Assembly (NCBI GenBank): GCA_903824665.1
Contig: CAIJXT010000034.1
Location: 1 to 64,000 of the forward strand
Source of the DNA: an uncultured Bacteroidota bacterium
GTDB lineage: Bacteria > Bacteroidota > Bacteroidia > Chitinophagales > Chitinophagaceae
DNA length: 64,000 bases
Reading direction: 5' to 3'
Below the pieces are notes generated by a model, which ran no database searches, had not been told where the DNA came from, and saw nothing but the letters and a program-made list of their open reading frames with translations. Made by a program: the position numbers and the translations under genes. Positions 29,505-35,294 of the stretch are shown here, piece after piece (positions within the stretch are counted from its first letter, which is position 1; every line of letters begins with the position of its first letter).

Positions 29505-29544
29505 GCCGCTATTCCTGATTTTACCTGCTTACCTGTGGTGGATG

Positions 29545-30399
29545 CTATGCCGCCGTTTTGTGTTTTTGCGCACTTTTTCGCGCAATTTCCTGTTTTCGTG
29601 CTTTTCTGCTTAATTTGTTGATAGTCTTGTTTTTACGAAACATGATATTTTTACTTTTTGCGCAGTTTTTGCGCACTTGCTTCTCACTGCCAAGGATTTC
29701 CGATTCGGTGGTTTGCTGTTCCTCTGTTTCGTTTGGGCAGTCGATATTTTCTTCGTCTACGGGTTGTTTAGGGGTACCGGGGAGGGTGCTTATCTCTTCT
29801 TCGGAGGGGAAGGGGATGCCACAGCGCTTGTAGGTTTCTACTGTTTCGGGATCAGAGAAGAAAGCTTCGCGATGGTCTATCAGCGTTTCGGTTCTGTCGG
29901 GGTCGGGGTATGGGATGGTGCCCGAGAGGCCGGTGAAATGGGCAGGGAGGAGTGTATCCCGGTTGATGTTGGCACGGGAGGTCATATACTCATCTAGGTA
30001 AGGCATGACAGCCTGTGCAAGCTCGGGGTTCTTTGCATGGAGCATATCCATAAAGTGGCCGCACAGCTCGATGGACTCGTTGAGGGCAGCACGGCTTTTG
30101 AGGTTCTTGATGGTGCGGGTGAGCTTGTAGAGTGCGTCGATCTCTACGGGCTTGACGGGGTCTGTGACGCGTCGCTCTGACAGGTACCGCTCGGTAAGGT
30201 TGCCAAAGATGTGGTAACAGTTCTCTACGAGTATAGCGGGCATGTGCTCGGCTGATTTTTTGAGGCGGTCCCAGTCGCCCTCTCTGACCCAGTAGGATAG
30301 GCTGCGCCGGCTGATTTCGAGCATGGCGGCAATCTGGGTTTTGTTGAGGCCGGTCTGGAAGTAGAGATTGCGGGCTTGTTGCTTTTTTTCTGTATTCAT
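29545..30399 (-). CDS. HTH protein resembling terminase gpP-like small subunit
   Basis: A 284-residue protein from the ATG at 30399 (MNTEKKQQARNLYF). The frame stays open further upstream to 30792, but that part is repeat sequence and unlikely to be translated. Residues ~8-45 form a helix-turn-helix (LNKTQIAAMLEISRRSLSYW) like that of gpP-type terminase DNA-binding domains. The middle is helical and the C-terminal ~35 residues are very Lys/Arg-rich. It could be a phage or mobile-element remnant, or a domesticated DNA-binding protein. No portal, capsid or large terminase gene is near. It lies directly beside the 30584-31330 repeat array, and its relation to that array is open. Confidence 0.65.
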   Translation of the reverse strand: MNTEKKQQARNLYFQTGLNKTQIAAMLEISRRSLSYWVREGDWDRLKKSAEHMPAILVENCYHIFGNLTERYLSERRVTDPVKPVEIDALYKLTRTIKNLKSRAALNESIELCGHFMDMLHAKNPELAQAVMPYLDEYMTSRANINRDTLLPAHFTGLSGTIPYPDPDRTETLIDHREAFFSDPETVETYKRCGIPFPSEEEISTLPGTPKQPVDEENIDCPNETEEQQTTESEILGSEKQVRKNCAKSKNIMFRKNKTINKLSRKARKQEIARKSAQKHKTAA

Positions 30400-30583
30400 G
30401 GTGCTGATTTTAGGTATTTGGGTGTGAAGGTCGGGAGGGTTTTGGTCGTGGGCAAACGGGGTGTATATGATATGCAGCCAGCTGCATATCATAAGACGTA
30501 TACGCGATATGATAAAAAGTTCTTTCGGCTGTGGGCGCGGGTTTTGGGGTGAATTTATGTTTGGCAAACAAGCGGTACTATCT

Positions 30584-30625
30584 GCCCATCCGCTCGTACC
30601 TTTTTCTGCAGCGAAAAAAAGTACC
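30584..30625. repeat. Partial copy (A) of the hairpin repeat
   Basis: It carries only the leading part of the longer repeats: the shared GCCCATCCGCTC start and an imperfect GTACC(T)n-CTGCAGC-G(A)nGTAC hairpin. The body of the repeat is missing. Confidence 0.75.
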
Positions 30626-30710
30626 GGTGGAATGTAAAGATGTTTCTCTGCGCGGCTGCCCACGGGGCTATGCGCTTGATCAACATGACAAACCCAAGTA
30701 TTAATACTTT

Positions 30711-30980
30711 GCCCATCCGCTCGTACTTTTTTTCTGCAGCGAAAAAAAGTACCAAAAAAACGCCGCCCTTTGCCCAATCGCTCCGCGGGCAAAGGGTTAG
30801 CTCTACGCTGTTATCCTTCGGCGCTATGGGGCTGCATGGCACTGGTTTGCTGACTATGCAGTGCTGCTATTAAGCGGCTGTGCATGGCTTGTGATTTGTT
30901 GGTTTTTTTAAACGTCCAGATCCACATCTACGACATCAAAAGGTGCCATCATGGGCTGGGCTTCTTTTCTACTTTCAGCA
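30711..30980. repeat. 270-bp intergenic direct repeat, copy B
   Basis: It starts GCCCATCCGCTC. Hairpin 1 is GTACTTTTTTTC/GAAAAAAAGTAC (30723-30752); hairpin 2 is CCCTTTGCCC/GGGCAAAGGG (30766-30796). A 164-bp body (30798-30961) is about 95% identical to copy C with no gaps, followed by a weaker shared tail up to TTTCAGCA. No good reading frame runs through it. It is likely a non-autonomous mobile or structured element. Confidence 0.85.
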
Positions 30981-31053
30981 TGATGTTTTGTTGTTCCTGT
31001 TTTTTAGTTTGTTGCAGCCAGTCGGGAAACTAGCGCCCAGCAAAGTGATATCA

Positions 31054-31330
31054 GCCCATCCGCTCCTACTTTTCTTTTTTTTCGCAAAAAAGAAAAGTAG
31101 CAAAAGAAAAAGGCGATTTTTTGCCAAAGGCTCCGCCGGCAAAAAAATAGCTCTACGCTGTTTTCCTTCGGCGCTATGGGGCTGCATGGCACTGGTTTGC
31201 TGCCTATGCAGTGCTGCTATTAAGCGGCTGTGCATGGCTTGTGATTTGTTGGTTTTTTGGAACGACCGGATCCACATCTACGACATCAAAAGGTGCCATC
31301 AAGAGCTGGGCAGGGACTCTACTATCAGCA
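31054..31330. repeat. 277-bp intergenic direct repeat, copy C
   Basis: Same layout as copy B. Hairpin 1 is CTACTTTTCTTTTTT/AAAAAAGAAAAGTAG (31066-31100, 15 bp); hairpin 2 is TTTTTTGCC/GGCAAAAAA (31117-31146). The body is 31148-31311. The hairpin arms differ from those of copy B on both sides so that pairing is kept. It ends about 25 bp from the stop of the membrane protein gene at 31355. Confidence 0.85.
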
Positions 31331-31354
31331 AAGCTCCTTTATTTAATTTTCTTT

Positions 31355-31846
31355 TTATGATTCCGGCAAGTCGTCTGGTACGGCTATATGGCGTGGATAG
31401 GAAAGGTATACCCCTGCCCATGAGAAAACGAAATGTGGGAGAAGGTAACCTGCCATAATTATTTGTATAACCTCTGCAGTGGTGTCCGAAAAATACCGGA
31501 TTGTACAGTAAACAGCAATAGCCGACAGCAACGATAAAATAATCGCTGCTACATACCTGGGCAAACCTGCACGTGCCAGCAGCGTAAAAAGAATAATGTA
31601 GACCGCAGCAGCAGGGATGGAAAACAGACCAGCGAAAAGACAAAAAAAGGAAAAGAGCTCTAAATAGTCTTCATTATAGGGCCCCGTATTGCTTAGCAGC
31701 GGCTTACCGCTATCTACGGCTATGATTATAATCAGCAGGAACGCACCTGCCAATATAGTAAGGATCCAGATGAAAAACGCTGCAAGTACAGGACGTATTT
31801 TACCGGGTTTGTGCTGTAACATTGGTATAAAAATGTTTCCATGCAA
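31355..31846 (-). CDS. Multi-pass membrane protein, unknown
   Basis: A 163-residue protein with four hydrophobic segments (residues ~20-43, ~64-88, ~92-113 and ~128-147) separated by short loops. The N-terminus is short and basic, the C-terminus short and polar. I recognise no family or catalytic motif. Its stop lies just beyond repeat copy C, and a palindrome-rich gap separates its start from the next membrane protein on the same strand. Base composition is nearer to the main chromosome than to the AT-rich block to its right. Confidence 0.6.
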   Translation of the reverse strand: MHGNIFIPMLQHKPGKIRPVLAAFFIWILTILAGAFLLIIIIAVDSGKPLLSNTGPYNEDYLELFSFFCLFAGLFSIPAAAVYIILFTLLARAGLPRYVAAIILSLLSAIAVYCTIRYFSDTTAEVIQIIMAGYLLPHFVFSWAGVYLSYPRHIAVPDDLPES

Positions 31847-31872
31847 TGTAGGAGTTTATTTTCCTGCGCAAG

Positions 31873-31930
31873 GCTGTTGGTCAGAAAATAAGACCAACAG
31901 CGGAGAAAAGTCGTCAATCTGGAGATTGAC
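31873..31930. repeat. Two adjacent palindromes
   Basis: GCTGTTGGTC/GACCAACAGC (31873-31882 and 31892-31901, 9-base loop) is followed by GTCAATCT/AGATTGAC (31913-31920 and 31923-31930). They lie between two minus-strand genes and may end transcription from the right-hand one, though neither has a clear T-run. They sit at the left edge of the AT-rich island. Confidence 0.55.
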
Positions 31931-31984
31931 TACCGCTGTGACGAAGTCGGGAGACTACGCCAAGCTAATATTTGCAGCAAATTC

Positions 31985-32602
31985 TTATTTGTTATTGTTG
32001 CCATTTTTCGTCTGTACTTTTTCAGGTACGATCATTTGTATAATTGGTCTTAGTGAAGGGGTTGTCAGTTTGAGAATAAGTCCTGATAAAACGATAGCAA
32101 TTAATATCAAAACAAAAATTGAACTTTCTTGTTTCTTGTCCTTTAGCTTTGACAGTGTTGGCAGAAATATTTTGGTAAGTACTTTGGTCAGCAAGAAAAC
32201 AAGCAAAAAGAATATTCCAAAAAATACTAATAGTATTAATAACCCAGCAAACTCTACAACAAAGTACCAAACCAGTCCAATTTCAACTGAACAGAGCAGA
32301 AAGAAGAATAACTCGTACCTCCATGTCCCGTCATTTGAATTAAGCGTAAATAAAATCAGTTCAAGCCAAACTAATATTGAAAGAATAAAAAATGTTGGGA
32401 GCAGAAATTCAGCAGCACCTTCGCCTTTGAGAGTGGTTGAATAAATAAAAAGTGCATTAAACACTCCGAAAAGTGTCACCAAATTTGTTGTCCTATCTAA
32501 GAAGTCCTTGAAAGGAACTCCTTTTTCTTTTGAATCTTTCTCCATAAGTAGCATCGTCAAACTAATTACCACTAAACATCTGGATTGACGCATTGCTATC
32601 AA
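31985..32602 (-). CDS. Multi-pass membrane protein of the AT-rich island, unknown
   Basis: Up to 205 residues; starting at the internal Met at 32545 (MEKDSKEKGV) gives 186 and may be the real start. It has about five hydrophobic segments, two of them merging into a long Leu/Phe-rich stretch, and a Lys-rich C-terminus. It is AT-rich like the RloAB genes to its right, but a terminator at 32738-32764 separates it from them, so co-transcription is unlikely. No family recognised. Small multi-TM proteins are common membrane effectors in defence islands, but nothing specific shows that here. Confidence 0.6.
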   Translation of the reverse strand: MIAMRQSRCLVVISLTMLLMEKDSKEKGVPFKDFLDRTTNLVTLFGVFNALFIYSTTLKGEGAAEFLLPTFFILSILVWLELILFTLNSNDGTWRYELFFFLLCSVEIGLVWYFVVEFAGLLILLVFFGIFFLLVFLLTKVLTKIFLPTLSKLKDKKQESSIFVLILIAIVLSGLILKLTTPSLRPIIQMIVPEKVQTKNGNNNK

Positions 32603-32737
32603 TCCACTTGGATTAGTAGGTGTTGTTTAGTAAATATATAGAAAATGCCAAGCGAGGTCAAGATGATTCGACTATGTAGGCACTCCATTTGTGATATTTT
32701 TAAAATAAAAAATCGAAGTTCTTGTGAAATATAAAAA

Positions 32738-32764
32738 CAAAACCCTTGCTTCGCATGGGTTTTG
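32738..32764 (-). terminator. Intrinsic terminator of the RloAB operon
   Basis: Read on the minus strand: CAAAACCC-A-TGC-GAA-GCA-A-GGGTTTTG, an 11-bp stem with one symmetric mismatch, followed by TTTTTATA. It lies about 100 bases past the rloB-like stop. Confidence 0.75.
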
Positions 32765-32867
32765 TGAAGTGTTGGCTTAACAGGCGAAATGTTGAAACAG
32801 ATATGGGATGATTTATTGAAGATATATGAAGTAGCCAAAAGATTGTTTATATGACGTATTGTTGTAG

Positions 32868-33572
32868 CTATTGAGCATTATTGTATTTCTCAGTTATCTC
32901 ATCATTAAACACTTGGGATTTTCCCATAAGTTCTTCAACAAGTTTAAACACTTGAGTTGCTGGATTATAATTTGCAAATGCTTCTCCAATCATTTCATTA
33001 TTGAGTTCTTTTGCCCAGCGAATAGCCATTTCTTGATTTCCTACTTTGTTCAACAGAGAATACATATTAGTATCATTTTTTTTGTAGGAAAACCTCTTGC
33101 CTTTCAATAGTTTTGAATTTATTGCAGCTTCTATAGCCTTTTTGTATTCTTCTCTATCCATTGCAGTTATGCGATTGTGAAAATGCAAAAGATACCAAAG
33201 TTCAAACGCTTGATTACTCCATGCGCATTCAATATTATTAGCTTTTGCTTTTAAAATTGCATTATTGAAGGCCGTGGATTTAAAACTGTCTTTATCGAAC
33301 ACTGCCCAAACTCTATCATATTTTTGCTTGGTGGTGTCACGCAATTCAATTGCTTTTTCAACTACCTTTAGTGTACTAATTCCGCCCCCTTCAAATTGAA
33401 TATCATACACAAGTTTACCCACTTGCTTAGGGAATGCTTTAAAGTAGTTAGGTTCAGTTTTTTCACCCTCACATACAATCAAGAAATATGCTACAAGCTC
33501 TTTGGATTTTTTTTCCTTTTTAAATTGAAAACGTTTTTTTAAAGCATTGTCAATTTTTATTGTTCTCGCCAT
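32868..33572 (-). CDS. rloB: RloB-like protein (predicted TOPRIM-like effector)
   Basis: A 234-residue protein with the RloB family pattern: basic N-terminus, LIVCEGEKTEPNYF (residues 31-44), a second acidic motif VFDKD (91-95), and the SNQAFELWYLLHFHN signature (119-133). The first Glu and the later DxD are spaced as in TOPRIM-type nucleases; that reading is my inference. RloB genes are found beside ATPase genes in restriction and phage-defence loci. Here it follows the ATPase gene by 10 bases on the same strand and is markedly AT-rich. Likely role: effector of a two-gene abortive-infection-type system controlled by the ATPase. Confidence 0.85.
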   Translation of the reverse strand: MARTIKIDNALKKRFQFKKEKKSKELVAYFLIVCEGEKTEPNYFKAFPKQVGKLVYDIQFEGGGISTLKVVEKAIELRDTTKQKYDRVWAVFDKDSFKSTAFNNAILKAKANNIECAWSNQAFELWYLLHFHNRITAMDREEYKKAIEAAINSKLLKGKRFSYKKNDTNMYSLLNKVGNQEMAIRWAKELNNEMIGEAFANYNPATQVFKLVEELMGKSQVFNDEITEKYNNAQ

Positions 33573-33582
33573 GTTAAAAGTT

Positions 33583-34848
33583 TCAATTAGTTATAAAAGG
33601 AATGGCTCCATATCTCCCTCTTATGTAGTTTTTCTCAAAATTACCATCATTTCTGACTTTTGTCCCATCCGGTAAATTAACAGAATATAATGAGTACAAG
33701 TCAGTCTGTTCTAGACTATCTTTTTCGGTAAACCAAATCTGATCCCTTCTAAACAGTTCAGCACTCAATAAGTTAGTATCATGTGTTGCAAATAATAATT
33801 GTGCGTTATTGGGGTTAGTATCGGGACTATTAAAAAGGCTGACAATATTCATCGTTATCAGTGGATGAAGTTTTGCATCTAGTTCATCGATAACTAATAG
33901 TTTGCCTAGATTTAGAGTATCAAAAATTGGTCCTGATAAATCAATTATTTTATTGGTACCCTCTGATTCATTCTCATCTCTATCCCAAGAAACAGTATCA
34001 ATGATTTTTCCCTTTTTATCAAACTTATTATGTGAAGCCAATAAAACCACTTGCTTTTTACCTGTGAATTCTTTAATCAATTTTGACTTTAAATTTTTAG
34101 GTATTTCTCCCGGTAAATCTGTCGGATTAAATTCAATTTCACTTGGTATAAGATCACTAAATCCAAGTTTTAGTTTTTTAAAAAGAGACAATGATTCGTT
34201 ACATCCAGTTGTCTTCTTGTGCATCATCATTGTCGTGTAACCTTTATAGTCCTTGTGATCTACACCCGACAAAACGTTATAACCATCAAACCATTCAAGG
34301 ATTTGTTTTGAAATATTTCCGCCTAATTGAGCAACTAGCGATATGAACAGTCTGTTGTCATTTGTAGATACTTCCTTTCCGTTTCCTTCATCAAACTTTT
34401 CAGTTACGCCAATTCCGTCTTTGGTCCTTAAAAACAACGGCCTTTGATTTTTCACGCTTTTTCCTTCAAAAAGCCACTCGTTGATTATATTTTTTTGGTT
34501 GTATTCAAAACCATACCTGTATTTTTGCGTTTTATCCAAAAATACGACTTCAAAAAAAGTTGGAGCATTTTCACCTGTGGCTGACAATAAAAATGGACTA
34601 TAATCTAGTTCATCTATATCATTAAGTTTTACAGATGAAAGAACTACTTCTTTCATCCTGTAAAGAGCTTTTATAAGGTTACTTTTACCACTCGAGTTAG
34701 CACCGTACACTACTACTGAACGCAGCAATTTATTTTTATTGTAATTAAATACGTTGCCCTTTAATTCGGATATTCCTTCCGCCTCAAAACTCAATGTTCG
34801 TTTTTGGTTGAATGACAAAAAATTTCCGACTGTGAATTCCACTATCAT
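33583..34848 (-). CDS. rloA: RloA-like AAA/ABC-type ATPase
   Basis: A 421-residue ATPase of the AAA_15/AAA_21 group (SMC/ABC-like head). Walker A is GANSSGKSN (residues 49-57), Walker B with the catalytic Glu is LLVIDELDAKLHP (~317-329), and the switch His is FATHD (~352-356). The N-terminus IVEFTVGNFLSFNQKRTLSF is the family's typical beta-strand opening. The paired downstream gene is RloB-like. Such ATPases act as sensors that hold or release a toxic partner, as in PARIS and OLD/Gabija-type systems. Composition is AT-rich compared with both flanks, consistent with acquisition. Start: ATG at 34848, preceded by an AT-rich leader. Confidence 0.88.
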   Translation of the reverse strand: MIVEFTVGNFLSFNQKRTLSFEAEGISELKGNVFNYNKNKLLRSVVVYGANSSGKSNLIKALYRMKEVVLSSVKLNDIDELDYSPFLLSATGENAPTFFEVVFLDKTQKYRYGFEYNQKNIINEWLFEGKSVKNQRPLFLRTKDGIGVTEKFDEGNGKEVSTNDNRLFISLVAQLGGNISKQILEWFDGYNVLSGVDHKDYKGYTTMMMHKKTTGCNESLSLFKKLKLGFSDLIPSEIEFNPTDLPGEIPKNLKSKLIKEFTGKKQVVLLASHNKFDKKGKIIDTVSWDRDENESEGTNKIIDLSGPIFDTLNLGKLLVIDELDAKLHPLITMNIVSLFNSPDTNPNNAQLLFATHDTNLLSAELFRRDQIWFTEKDSLEQTDLYSLYSVNLPDGTKVRNDGNFEKNYIRGRYGAIPFITN

Positions 34849-35016
34849 TTGATTGATATTTTTTCACAATTTTAATGTATTATTTTGAAAAAATGTCTCT
34901 AATGGCAACTCAAAATGAGAATTTTTCTCAAAAAGGTGTTTTTTTAACTTTACTGTTGCAACAAAATTTCAGCTGCGTTGTAGGATGGTTCGAATTTGCA
35001 ATATGACCGGAAAAAC

Positions 35017-35130
35017 AAAGAGGATGTCTCAAAAGGTTTTTAACCCGCCTGAGAATCACATATACGAAAAATATCTCCATCTGGTACCCGAATAAAAGAG
35101 GCTGTCTCGGACTTTTGAGACAGCCTCTTT
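35017..35130. mobile_element. 114-bp IS-end / MITE-like element
   Basis: The ends are 19-bp inverted repeats with one mismatch: AAAGAGGATGTCTCAAAAG at 35017-35035 and, inverted, AAAGAGGCTGTCTCAAAAG at 35112-35130. A further direct copy of the first 14 bases (35095-35108) pairs with the right end to form a 14-bp hairpin with an 8-base loop. Ends of this AAAGAGGCTGTCTC type are, to my knowledge, common at insertion sequences. No transposase is present and no target-site duplication is obvious. The hairpin could also serve as a terminator. Confidence 0.7.
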
Positions 35131-35138
35131 GTGAAATC

Positions 35139-35195
35139 TAGCCCGAACAGGAATCGAACCTGCTCTAACTTGCGGTAAGCAGAATTTGAGTCTGA
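35139..35195 (-). pseudogene. 3' half of a tRNA-Leu(CAA)-like gene
   Basis: Read on the minus strand: a 4-bp anticodon stem CAGA/TCTG with loop CTCAAAT (anticodon CAA at 35186-35188), a variable arm CTTAC-CGCAA-GTTAG, a T-arm GCAGG-TTCGATT-CCTGT, the acceptor 3' strand TCGGGCT and discriminator A. The matching 5' acceptor (AGCCCGA) and a normal D-arm are missing; the sequence where they should be pairs at only three acceptor positions. It therefore looks like a tRNA 3' fragment or decayed tRNA at the border of the AT-rich island. Confidence 0.6.
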
Positions 35196-35286
35196 TTCAA
35201 TCTTAGTAAACCAGGAAAGCCGCTATCCCCCACCCCTTTCCCAACCCGTGCACAAGAGTATAGCCGCTGTTCACGGGAGTATTCGC

Positions 35287-35294
35287 TAAATTTG
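35287..35294 (+). promoter_or_regulatory. Candidate -7 box, MauE/thioredoxin-like gene
   Basis: TAAATTTG matches TAnnTTTG and ends nine bases before the ATG at 35304, implying a very short leader. No -33 TTTG at standard spacing. Confidence 0.45.

Follow-up and report, generated by a model that had tools for sequence, protein, structure and literature searches.

The stretch of DNA analysed here (the window) comprises 64,000 nucleotides, positions 1 to 64,000 of the forward strand of contig CAIJXT010000034.1 (assembly GCA_903824665.1), from an uncultured Bacteroidota bacterium of the family Chitinophagaceae. Near its middle, two genes lie in tandem on the minus strand: rloA, which encodes an ATPase, is followed after a gap of 10 bp in the list of open reading frames (ORFs) by rloB, which encodes a protein of the RloB family. 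The Walker A (GANSSGKS) and Walker B (LLVIDELD) motifs and the FATHD histidine of RloA are intact, and RloB carries the motifs CEGEKTEPNYF and FDKDSF. Across 71 homologous pairs, the window pair included, residues K55, S56, D321, E322 and H356 of RloA and residues E35, D93, D95, E124, H130 and R140 of RloB are invariant. Downstream of rloB stands a hairpin terminator, which a simple terminator scan missed, probably because its stem holds an internal mismatch and the scan limited loops to 8. The GC content of positions 31990-34880 is 0.331, against a mean of 0.487 (standard deviation 0.025, minimum 0.443) in 2.9-kb windows outside. The two ORFs with their spacing and intact motifs, the terminator and the AT-rich block had all been described in an original prediction made from this DNA, and each was borne out. 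Coordinates of all features are collected in Table 1.

Table 1. Features of the rloA-rloB locus and of the insertion that contains it.
Feature	Position	Strand	Evidence
Whole composite insertion, 5.8 kb, between a glycosyltransferase gene and a MauE-domain gene	29505-35285 (right edge within 35193-35290)		Empty sites in congeners
Dispersed repeat with 415-residue helix-turn-helix (Terminase_5-like) ORF, left part of insertion	29545-31330	minus	Pfam Terminase_5, 1.8e-06
Orphan membrane-protein ORF, 205 residues, same AT-rich block	31985-32602	minus	No family match of note
Intrinsic terminator 3' of rloB	32727-32765 (hairpin 32737-32765 plus U tract)	minus	Fold -14.8 kcal/mol, z-score -4.08
Dispersed ~80-bp repeat beside the terminator, with 21-codon micro-ORF (32789-32854)	32764-32854	plus	Genus-wide matches
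rloB/abiLii, 234-residue putative TOPRIM nuclease effector, E35/D93/D95/E124 intact	32868-33572	minus	Pfam, PADLOC, AlphaFold2 model
rloA/abiLi, 421-residue ABC/SMC-head-type ATPase, putative sensor and restraint	33583-34848	minus	Pfam, PADLOC, AlphaFold2 model
Hairpin/inverted-repeat element upstream of rloA	35015-35132		21-bp outer arms; inner perfect 14-bp hairpin 35095-35130
tRNA-Leu(CAA) 3' remnant, right border	35142-35193	minus	90% over 52 bases versus intact gene on contig C31

Profile searches placed both proteins in a known family. RloA matched Pfam AAA_21 with an E-value (E) of 1.2e-32 and PADLOC AbiLi at 6.3e-91, with AriA also matched at 4.2e-29; RloB matched Pfam RloB at 2.4e-45, spanning the whole 195-position model, and PADLOC AbiLii at 5.9e-29. 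NCBIfam gave no specific match for either protein. In one published analysis, a node of RloB proteins is linked to AbiLii and tied by HHpred to the OLD-type TOPRIM (PMC10440598). RloA/RloB and AbiLi/AbiLii are thus two names for one family. The locus combines an AbiLi-type AAA_21 ATPase with an RloB-family partner in a two-gene operon with the ATPase first: it is a complete, intact and laterally acquired AbiL (RloA-RloB) module, a fresh example of a known but poorly studied system and not another kind of system. The original prediction of a laterally acquired two-gene abortive-infection module, built of an ATPase and a TOPRIM-like protein, is upheld by the family matches, near-obligate linkage, patchy occurrence, an empty site and defence and mobile neighbours, although it had left the AbiL family unnamed.

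The two genes travel as a unit. In all 12 loci examined from the window's family, and in 76 of 80 public ones, rloA immediately precedes rloB; in the remaining four the match starts no more than 157 bases from a contig end. The two samples probably share at least four records. In the 71-pair comparison, from which loci with incomplete ORFs and one locus with rloB in two frames (L129) were excluded, as they were from the alignment of relatives, the spacing between the genes ranges from -34 to +37 bp and the pairwise distances of RloA and RloB correlate (Mantel r = 0.88, reached by 0 of 999 permutations). Judged by these sequence distances, RloA and RloB co-evolve. The most variable stretches of RloA are residues 201-220 and 241-260, which might, at a guess, form a sensing surface. 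Interrupted copies of rloB beside an open rloA were seen twice among relatives: in G285, the closest relative within the family, an in-frame stop shortens RloB to 199 residues (L052 10293-11003), and in L129 (6462-7165) rloB is split over two frames; draft-assembly error is possible in both cases.

Within the family, 25 of 294 genomes, the window's own included, encode RloB, representing 21 of 101 genera. None of the four congeners listed in the family-wide search carries it; one other congener, G301, holds a distant pair (39/38% identity; AbiLi 6e-106). Eleven other aligned members of the window's family are 35-47% identical, with G285, of the same family, at 72%. The best public RloB matches, 72-75% identical although spread over several orders, come from Arcicella, Haliscomenobacteraceae, Albibacterium, a Bacteroidales genome and a Sphingobacteriales genome, the Myroides RloB is 68% identical, and 11 aligned Bacteroidota loci encode an RloB 60-75% identical to that of the window. 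Among plasmid and phage records, tblastn located RloB in 22 and 4, respectively, and the AT content of the pair exceeds that of its flanks in 57 of 64 loci. A place in the core genome, which would have contradicted the original prediction, is not what this distribution describes: the pair is sporadic, AT-rich and laterally moved. In the window itself, the locus is flanked by a glycosyltransferase gene and a MauE-domain gene, which stand next to each other, 57-142 bp apart, in three of six fetched congeners (G307, G298 and G303); in the other three the MauE gene lay outside the fetched stretch. Because the flanking genes adjoin in those three genomes, the DNA from 29505 to ~35285 is identified as inserted; the coordinates first proposed for the island, 31850-35200, omit its left part (29.5-31.85 kb).

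To place the relatives in context, we scanned their neighbours with PADLOC at a threshold of 1e-8. The neighbour set (A6) held 101 of 201 neighbouring proteins. From each of 51 loci it took the protein closest to the pair on either side, except that two neighbours of great length (right of L121, left of L145) were omitted and JetA of L054, a second neighbour, was included manually; loci qualified if they had at least 3 kb of sequence to the left and to the right, and four apparent duplicates were dropped. The control set (A7) held 111 of 121 ORFs, ten short, overlapping or edge ORFs having been dropped; it samples the window's family only (12 genomes, 12 arbitrarily chosen stretches), whereas the neighbours span numerous Bacteroidota and a small number of other phyla. 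The scan returned 222 models among the neighbours and 11 among the control proteins, and, with many models per gene, these figures measure enrichment and not a count of genes. Relatives of the pair therefore adjoin defence genes far more than the control proteins do, in keeping with the enrichment that the original prediction had anticipated. Among the 25 of the 222 models listed are Avs3a (E = 0), pAgo, SIR2, HerA, JetA, AbiEi and type I specificity. Individual loci that were checked contain Avs3a (L053), JetA of Wadjet (L054), AbiEi/AbiEii (L055), SIR2-HerA (L072), HsdM (L073), and a relaxase with an N-terminal piece of an integrase (L075). In Emticicia a conjugative plasmid carries the pair, with KwaAB (Kiwa) ~5 kb away, and in Fibrella it sits beside DNA methyltransferase and helicase genes. 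In a Peduoviridae (P2-like) Klebsiella phage (L210, MK422453.1), the pair adjoins the portal gene and is four small genes from the replication endonuclease. We take this portal-side position in P2-like phages to be the defence hotspot of Rousset et al. 2022.

Predicted structures bear on what the two proteins might do. An AlphaFold2 model of RloB, built with 58 aligned sequences (58 of the available sequences went into alignment A2 and 50 into A3), reached a mean predicted local distance difference test (pLDDT) score of 91.7 and a predicted template modelling (pTM) score of 0.85. Its elements run strand 26-34, helix 39-45, strand 54-62, helix 67-80, strand 87-93, helix 99-111 and strand 115-119; E35 comes immediately after strand 1, and D93/D95 stand where strand 3 ends. 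The TOPRIM domain is defined by a beta-alpha-beta-alpha-beta-alpha-beta core with a glutamate after strand 1 and a DxD motif after strand 3. The RloB model thus reproduces this TOPRIM order, its E35 and D93/D95 falling at the expected places. Against a library of viral structures, its single Foldseek match at E <= 0.001 was another RloB-like protein; sequence searches of solved structures with RloB gave chance-level results only (best 0.066 and 0.074), and a profile comparison of RloB with RloA, run as a negative control, found nothing. The RloA model (pLDDT 91.8) matched Rad50, SMC and PtuA heads, with a best E of 2.5e-9; the single ATPase sequence matched nothing among solved structures at E <= 0.01, and its profile matched PtuA alone (8.8e-4).

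The PARIS system offers a guide to mechanism. Like PARIS, the window pair divides a separate ATPase and a putative TOPRIM effector between two genes, its ATPase matches AriA, and RloB has an E..DxD..E pattern similar to the one that is invariant in six AriB-family (DUF4435) proteins. Unlike AriB, RloB has no match to DUF4435 (Pfam) or AriB (PADLOC) at E <= 1, and the same genome encodes a separate PARIS-type pair (AriA 4.9e-29, AriB 1e-27; contig C26, ~64212-64895, L186); on these two grounds, the window pair is not PARIS. In PARIS, an ATPase hexamer holds AriB, a TOPRIM tRNase, and contact with a phage protein frees AriB (PMC12409363). By analogy, the window pair probably works like PARIS.

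Taken together, a model for the window pair emerges in which we place good confidence: a laterally acquired AbiL module whose RloA would restrain its partner and sense infection, and whose RloB would strike an essential nucleic acid as a TOPRIM nuclease. RloA would oligomerise, keep RloB inactive and respond to an infection cue; RloB, a metal-dependent nuclease, would be set free on infection and cut its target, for which tRNA or another RNA is the first choice by analogy with AriB and DNA the second. Cleavage would stop the cell before phage is made. Lateral transfer brought the module into the chromosome, within the 5.8-kb composite insertion that separates two housekeeping genes. The gene content, family, motifs, linkage and co-evolution, the insertion and the defence and mobile neighbourhoods of relatives are direct observations. 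Restraint of a nuclease by the ATPase, a phage trigger and an RNA target are inferred by analogy with PARIS.

Other systems resemble the pair in part. Lactococcus lactis AbiL is likewise a two-gene operon in the same order, an AAA_21 ATPase followed by an RloB-family protein; the window pair differs in standing between housekeeping genes of a Bacteroidota genome instead of on a plasmid, and in matching the AbiLii model only partly. With Septu it shares the ATPase fold, PtuA being among the best Foldseek matches, but its partner is RloB and not the HNH nuclease PtuB. The Pfam description of AAA_21 mentions AbiEii of the type IV toxin-antitoxin system AbiE; AbiEi and AbiEii are absent from the best 25 of the 58 PADLOC matches of the ATPase and from the one match of RloB. 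OLD and the Gabija protein GajA also have an ABC-type ATPase working with a TOPRIM nuclease; here, though, there are two polypeptides and no fused TOPRIM, RloB has no match to OLD-like_TOPRIM (PF20469), and no helicase (GajB in Gabija) was matched by Pfam among the five ORFs of the insertion that were scanned. RloB might nevertheless be a DNA nuclease of the OLD/Gabija type that the ATPase loads or licenses on phage DNA, so that invading DNA and not host RNA is degraded or nicked. The RloA fold is closest to the DNA-binding heads of Rad50/SMC proteins, the TOPRIMs of OLD and GajA cut DNA (PMC12409363), and relatives adjoin restriction-modification genes such as hsdM (L073) and the DNA methyltransferase/helicase pair. 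Yet ATPase and effector are encoded separately, as in PARIS, and the toxicity of AbiLii alone to Escherichia coli, reported in PMC3985639, is easier to explain by a host target. We regard a DNA nuclease as possible but the less probable reading.

Several observations weigh against our favoured model of a restrained RNA-cutting nuclease. Some come from the comparison of RloB with TOPRIM structures on which the original prediction had staked its case: the model has the element order noted above, but a Foldseek search of solved structures in the Protein Data Bank (PDB) returned 0 matches at E <= 0.001 and hence no significant match to a solved TOPRIM. The TOPRIM proteins among its best 50 Foldseek matches were DnaG (E 0.077) and JetD (E 0.087). 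In hhalign comparisons, the RloB profile did not match the AriB-family (A4) or OLD-TOPRIM (A5) profiles significantly, and the positive control, AriB against OLD, also failed, which leaves this comparison without weight in either direction. The PADLOC AbiLii match spans only positions 19-101 of a 170-position model. The accessible parts of published AbiL/RloB work name no RNA or DNA substrate for any RloB. For Fusobacterium AbiLii, which is toxic to E. coli, the cognate AbiLi gave no neutralisation, and no toxicity in that host was reported for the AbiL genes of Lactococcus (PMC3985639). Finally, several close relatives carry the pair alone between housekeeping genes. In L077 (5487-7403), RloAB stands alone and co-directional between gltB and gltD; it ends 4 bp before what we take to be a hisF-like gene in L078 (7729-9714) and lies between presumably recN-like and fabI-like genes in L074 (7723-9714). 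Solitary RloAB in or beside runs of housekeeping genes is unusual for a toxic module.

Such solitary loci, gltB/gltD among them, would suit a selfish toxin-antitoxin pair, in which RloB as toxin and RloA as antitoxin maintain the locus that encodes them, with phage defence a by-product. An RloB-type toxin from Clostridium algidicarnis is indeed neutralised by its ATPase (PMC10440598), but the lack of rescue by AbiLi and the non-toxic Lactococcus genes speak against a simple toxin-antitoxin reading. The strong enrichment of defence genes beside relatives and the position in the P2-like phage also argue against it. So does the history of the system: AbiL was reportedly first found as phage resistance (Deng 1999, cited in PMC10440598). 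We consider a purely selfish role unlikely, and keep to an RloA-restrained RloB that acts in phage defence.

The remaining parts of the insertion form a patchwork. Its left part is the dispersed repeat with the Terminase_5-like ORF, which recurs at ten other places in the same genome (~790-1240 bp, 83-92% identical) and whose tail (31064-31330) is matched in at least 14 of 20 congeners searched. Besides the pair, the one other plausible ORF in the AT-rich block encodes the orphan membrane protein, and family scans recognised no other defence gene in what had been called a defence island, a term that overstated the content. As a third gene of the module, this ORF was rejected, having no homologue at E <= 1e-3 in 18 fetched or 80 public loci; of 147 family genomes, one besides its own gave a match, and that a weak one (E 1e-4, 31% over 67 residues). 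A 15-mer common to its vicinity and the PARIS locus was likewise set aside as a chance resemblance at the peptide level, present in a single copy in the genome.

On the right, the arms of the inverted repeat (35015-35035/35112-35132; 21 bp, 95%) are real, but the right one also forms half of a perfect 14-bp hairpin whose fold resembles that of a bidirectional terminator. The GAGGCTGTCTCAAAAG hairpins recur in 9 of 22 genomes of the genus, the window's own included, mostly as short terminator-like hairpins, and two-armed versions of ~110-130 bp occur in two other genomes (G171:C1:74168-74296 and G303:C85:8309-8417). The element is too short for a transposase gene. The border had been likened to the end of an insertion sequence (IS) or a miniature inverted-repeat transposable element (MITE), which we did not accept, since the motif behaves mostly as a terminator-like hairpin; the inverted repeat stands and the label was too strong. 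The tRNA-Leu 3' remnant foreseen beside it is confirmed by its identity to the intact gene. Besides that gene, tRNA-Leu(CAA) 3'-like stretches occur in three places, namely the window, ~0.7 kb from the intact gene, and contig C32 (78%); outside the window, the positions concerned in its genome (G000) are C31 58354-58438 and 59103-59152 and C32:20253-20311. These copies look as if the gene were a frequent attachment site.

Such a patchwork of repeats and a tRNA remnant could house a passenger that has decayed or fallen silent, a cassette acquired but without function here any more, and the stop codon that cuts RloB to 199 residues in G285 points the same way. With both window ORFs at full length, all invariant residues kept and a terminator after the pair, we judge this very unlikely; an intact AbiL module remains our reading.

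On the other side of the pair, the stretch formed by the terminator and the ~80-bp repeat is matched in 13 of 26 genomes of the genus, its own included, at E <= 0.01, and the micro-ORF part in 8 of 26 (by manual row count). The frame and stop of the micro-ORF are kept in 10 of 11 distinct copies, under a search pattern that fixes the first codons only; its peptide reads MLKQIWDDLLKIYEVAKRLFI in the window and others are like MSNQIWDDLVKIYKVAKKLGL, with a weak Pfam hint of STALD (E 0.11). The repeat often adjoins a hairpin terminator. Further copies lie at L213 6839, 7514, 9027 and 10334 and at G000 C8:27387 and C13:1833, and in congener G298 three or four copies (one 68% alike) are set 0.7-1.5 kb apart between successive ORFs, resembling a cassette array. 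RloAB might move as a bare two-gene cassette that has no recombinase of its own and is exchanged by recombination between hairpin-terminator/repeat modules, here the terminator with the micro-ORF repeat on one side and the hairpin with the tRNA-Leu remnant on the other; linked to this is the idea that RloB would be a second, independent lineage of TOPRIM tRNase. We think this combination quite unlikely; if true, it would mean that defence genes of Bacteroidota can spread by cassette exchange.

As a finding, the locus is of an ordinary kind. AbiL is a classical abortive-infection system that has been little studied, the accessible parts of the literature reporting neither its trigger nor its target. 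The locus and its Bacteroidota relatives form a small and well-conserved set in which the active-site residues are named, and, with RloAB and a PARIS-type pair, one cell holds two separate split ATPase-TOPRIM systems. The conserved RloAB set and the PARIS-type pair of the same genome thereby make directly testable the question of whether all split ATPase-TOPRIM systems cut tRNA after release of the nuclease.

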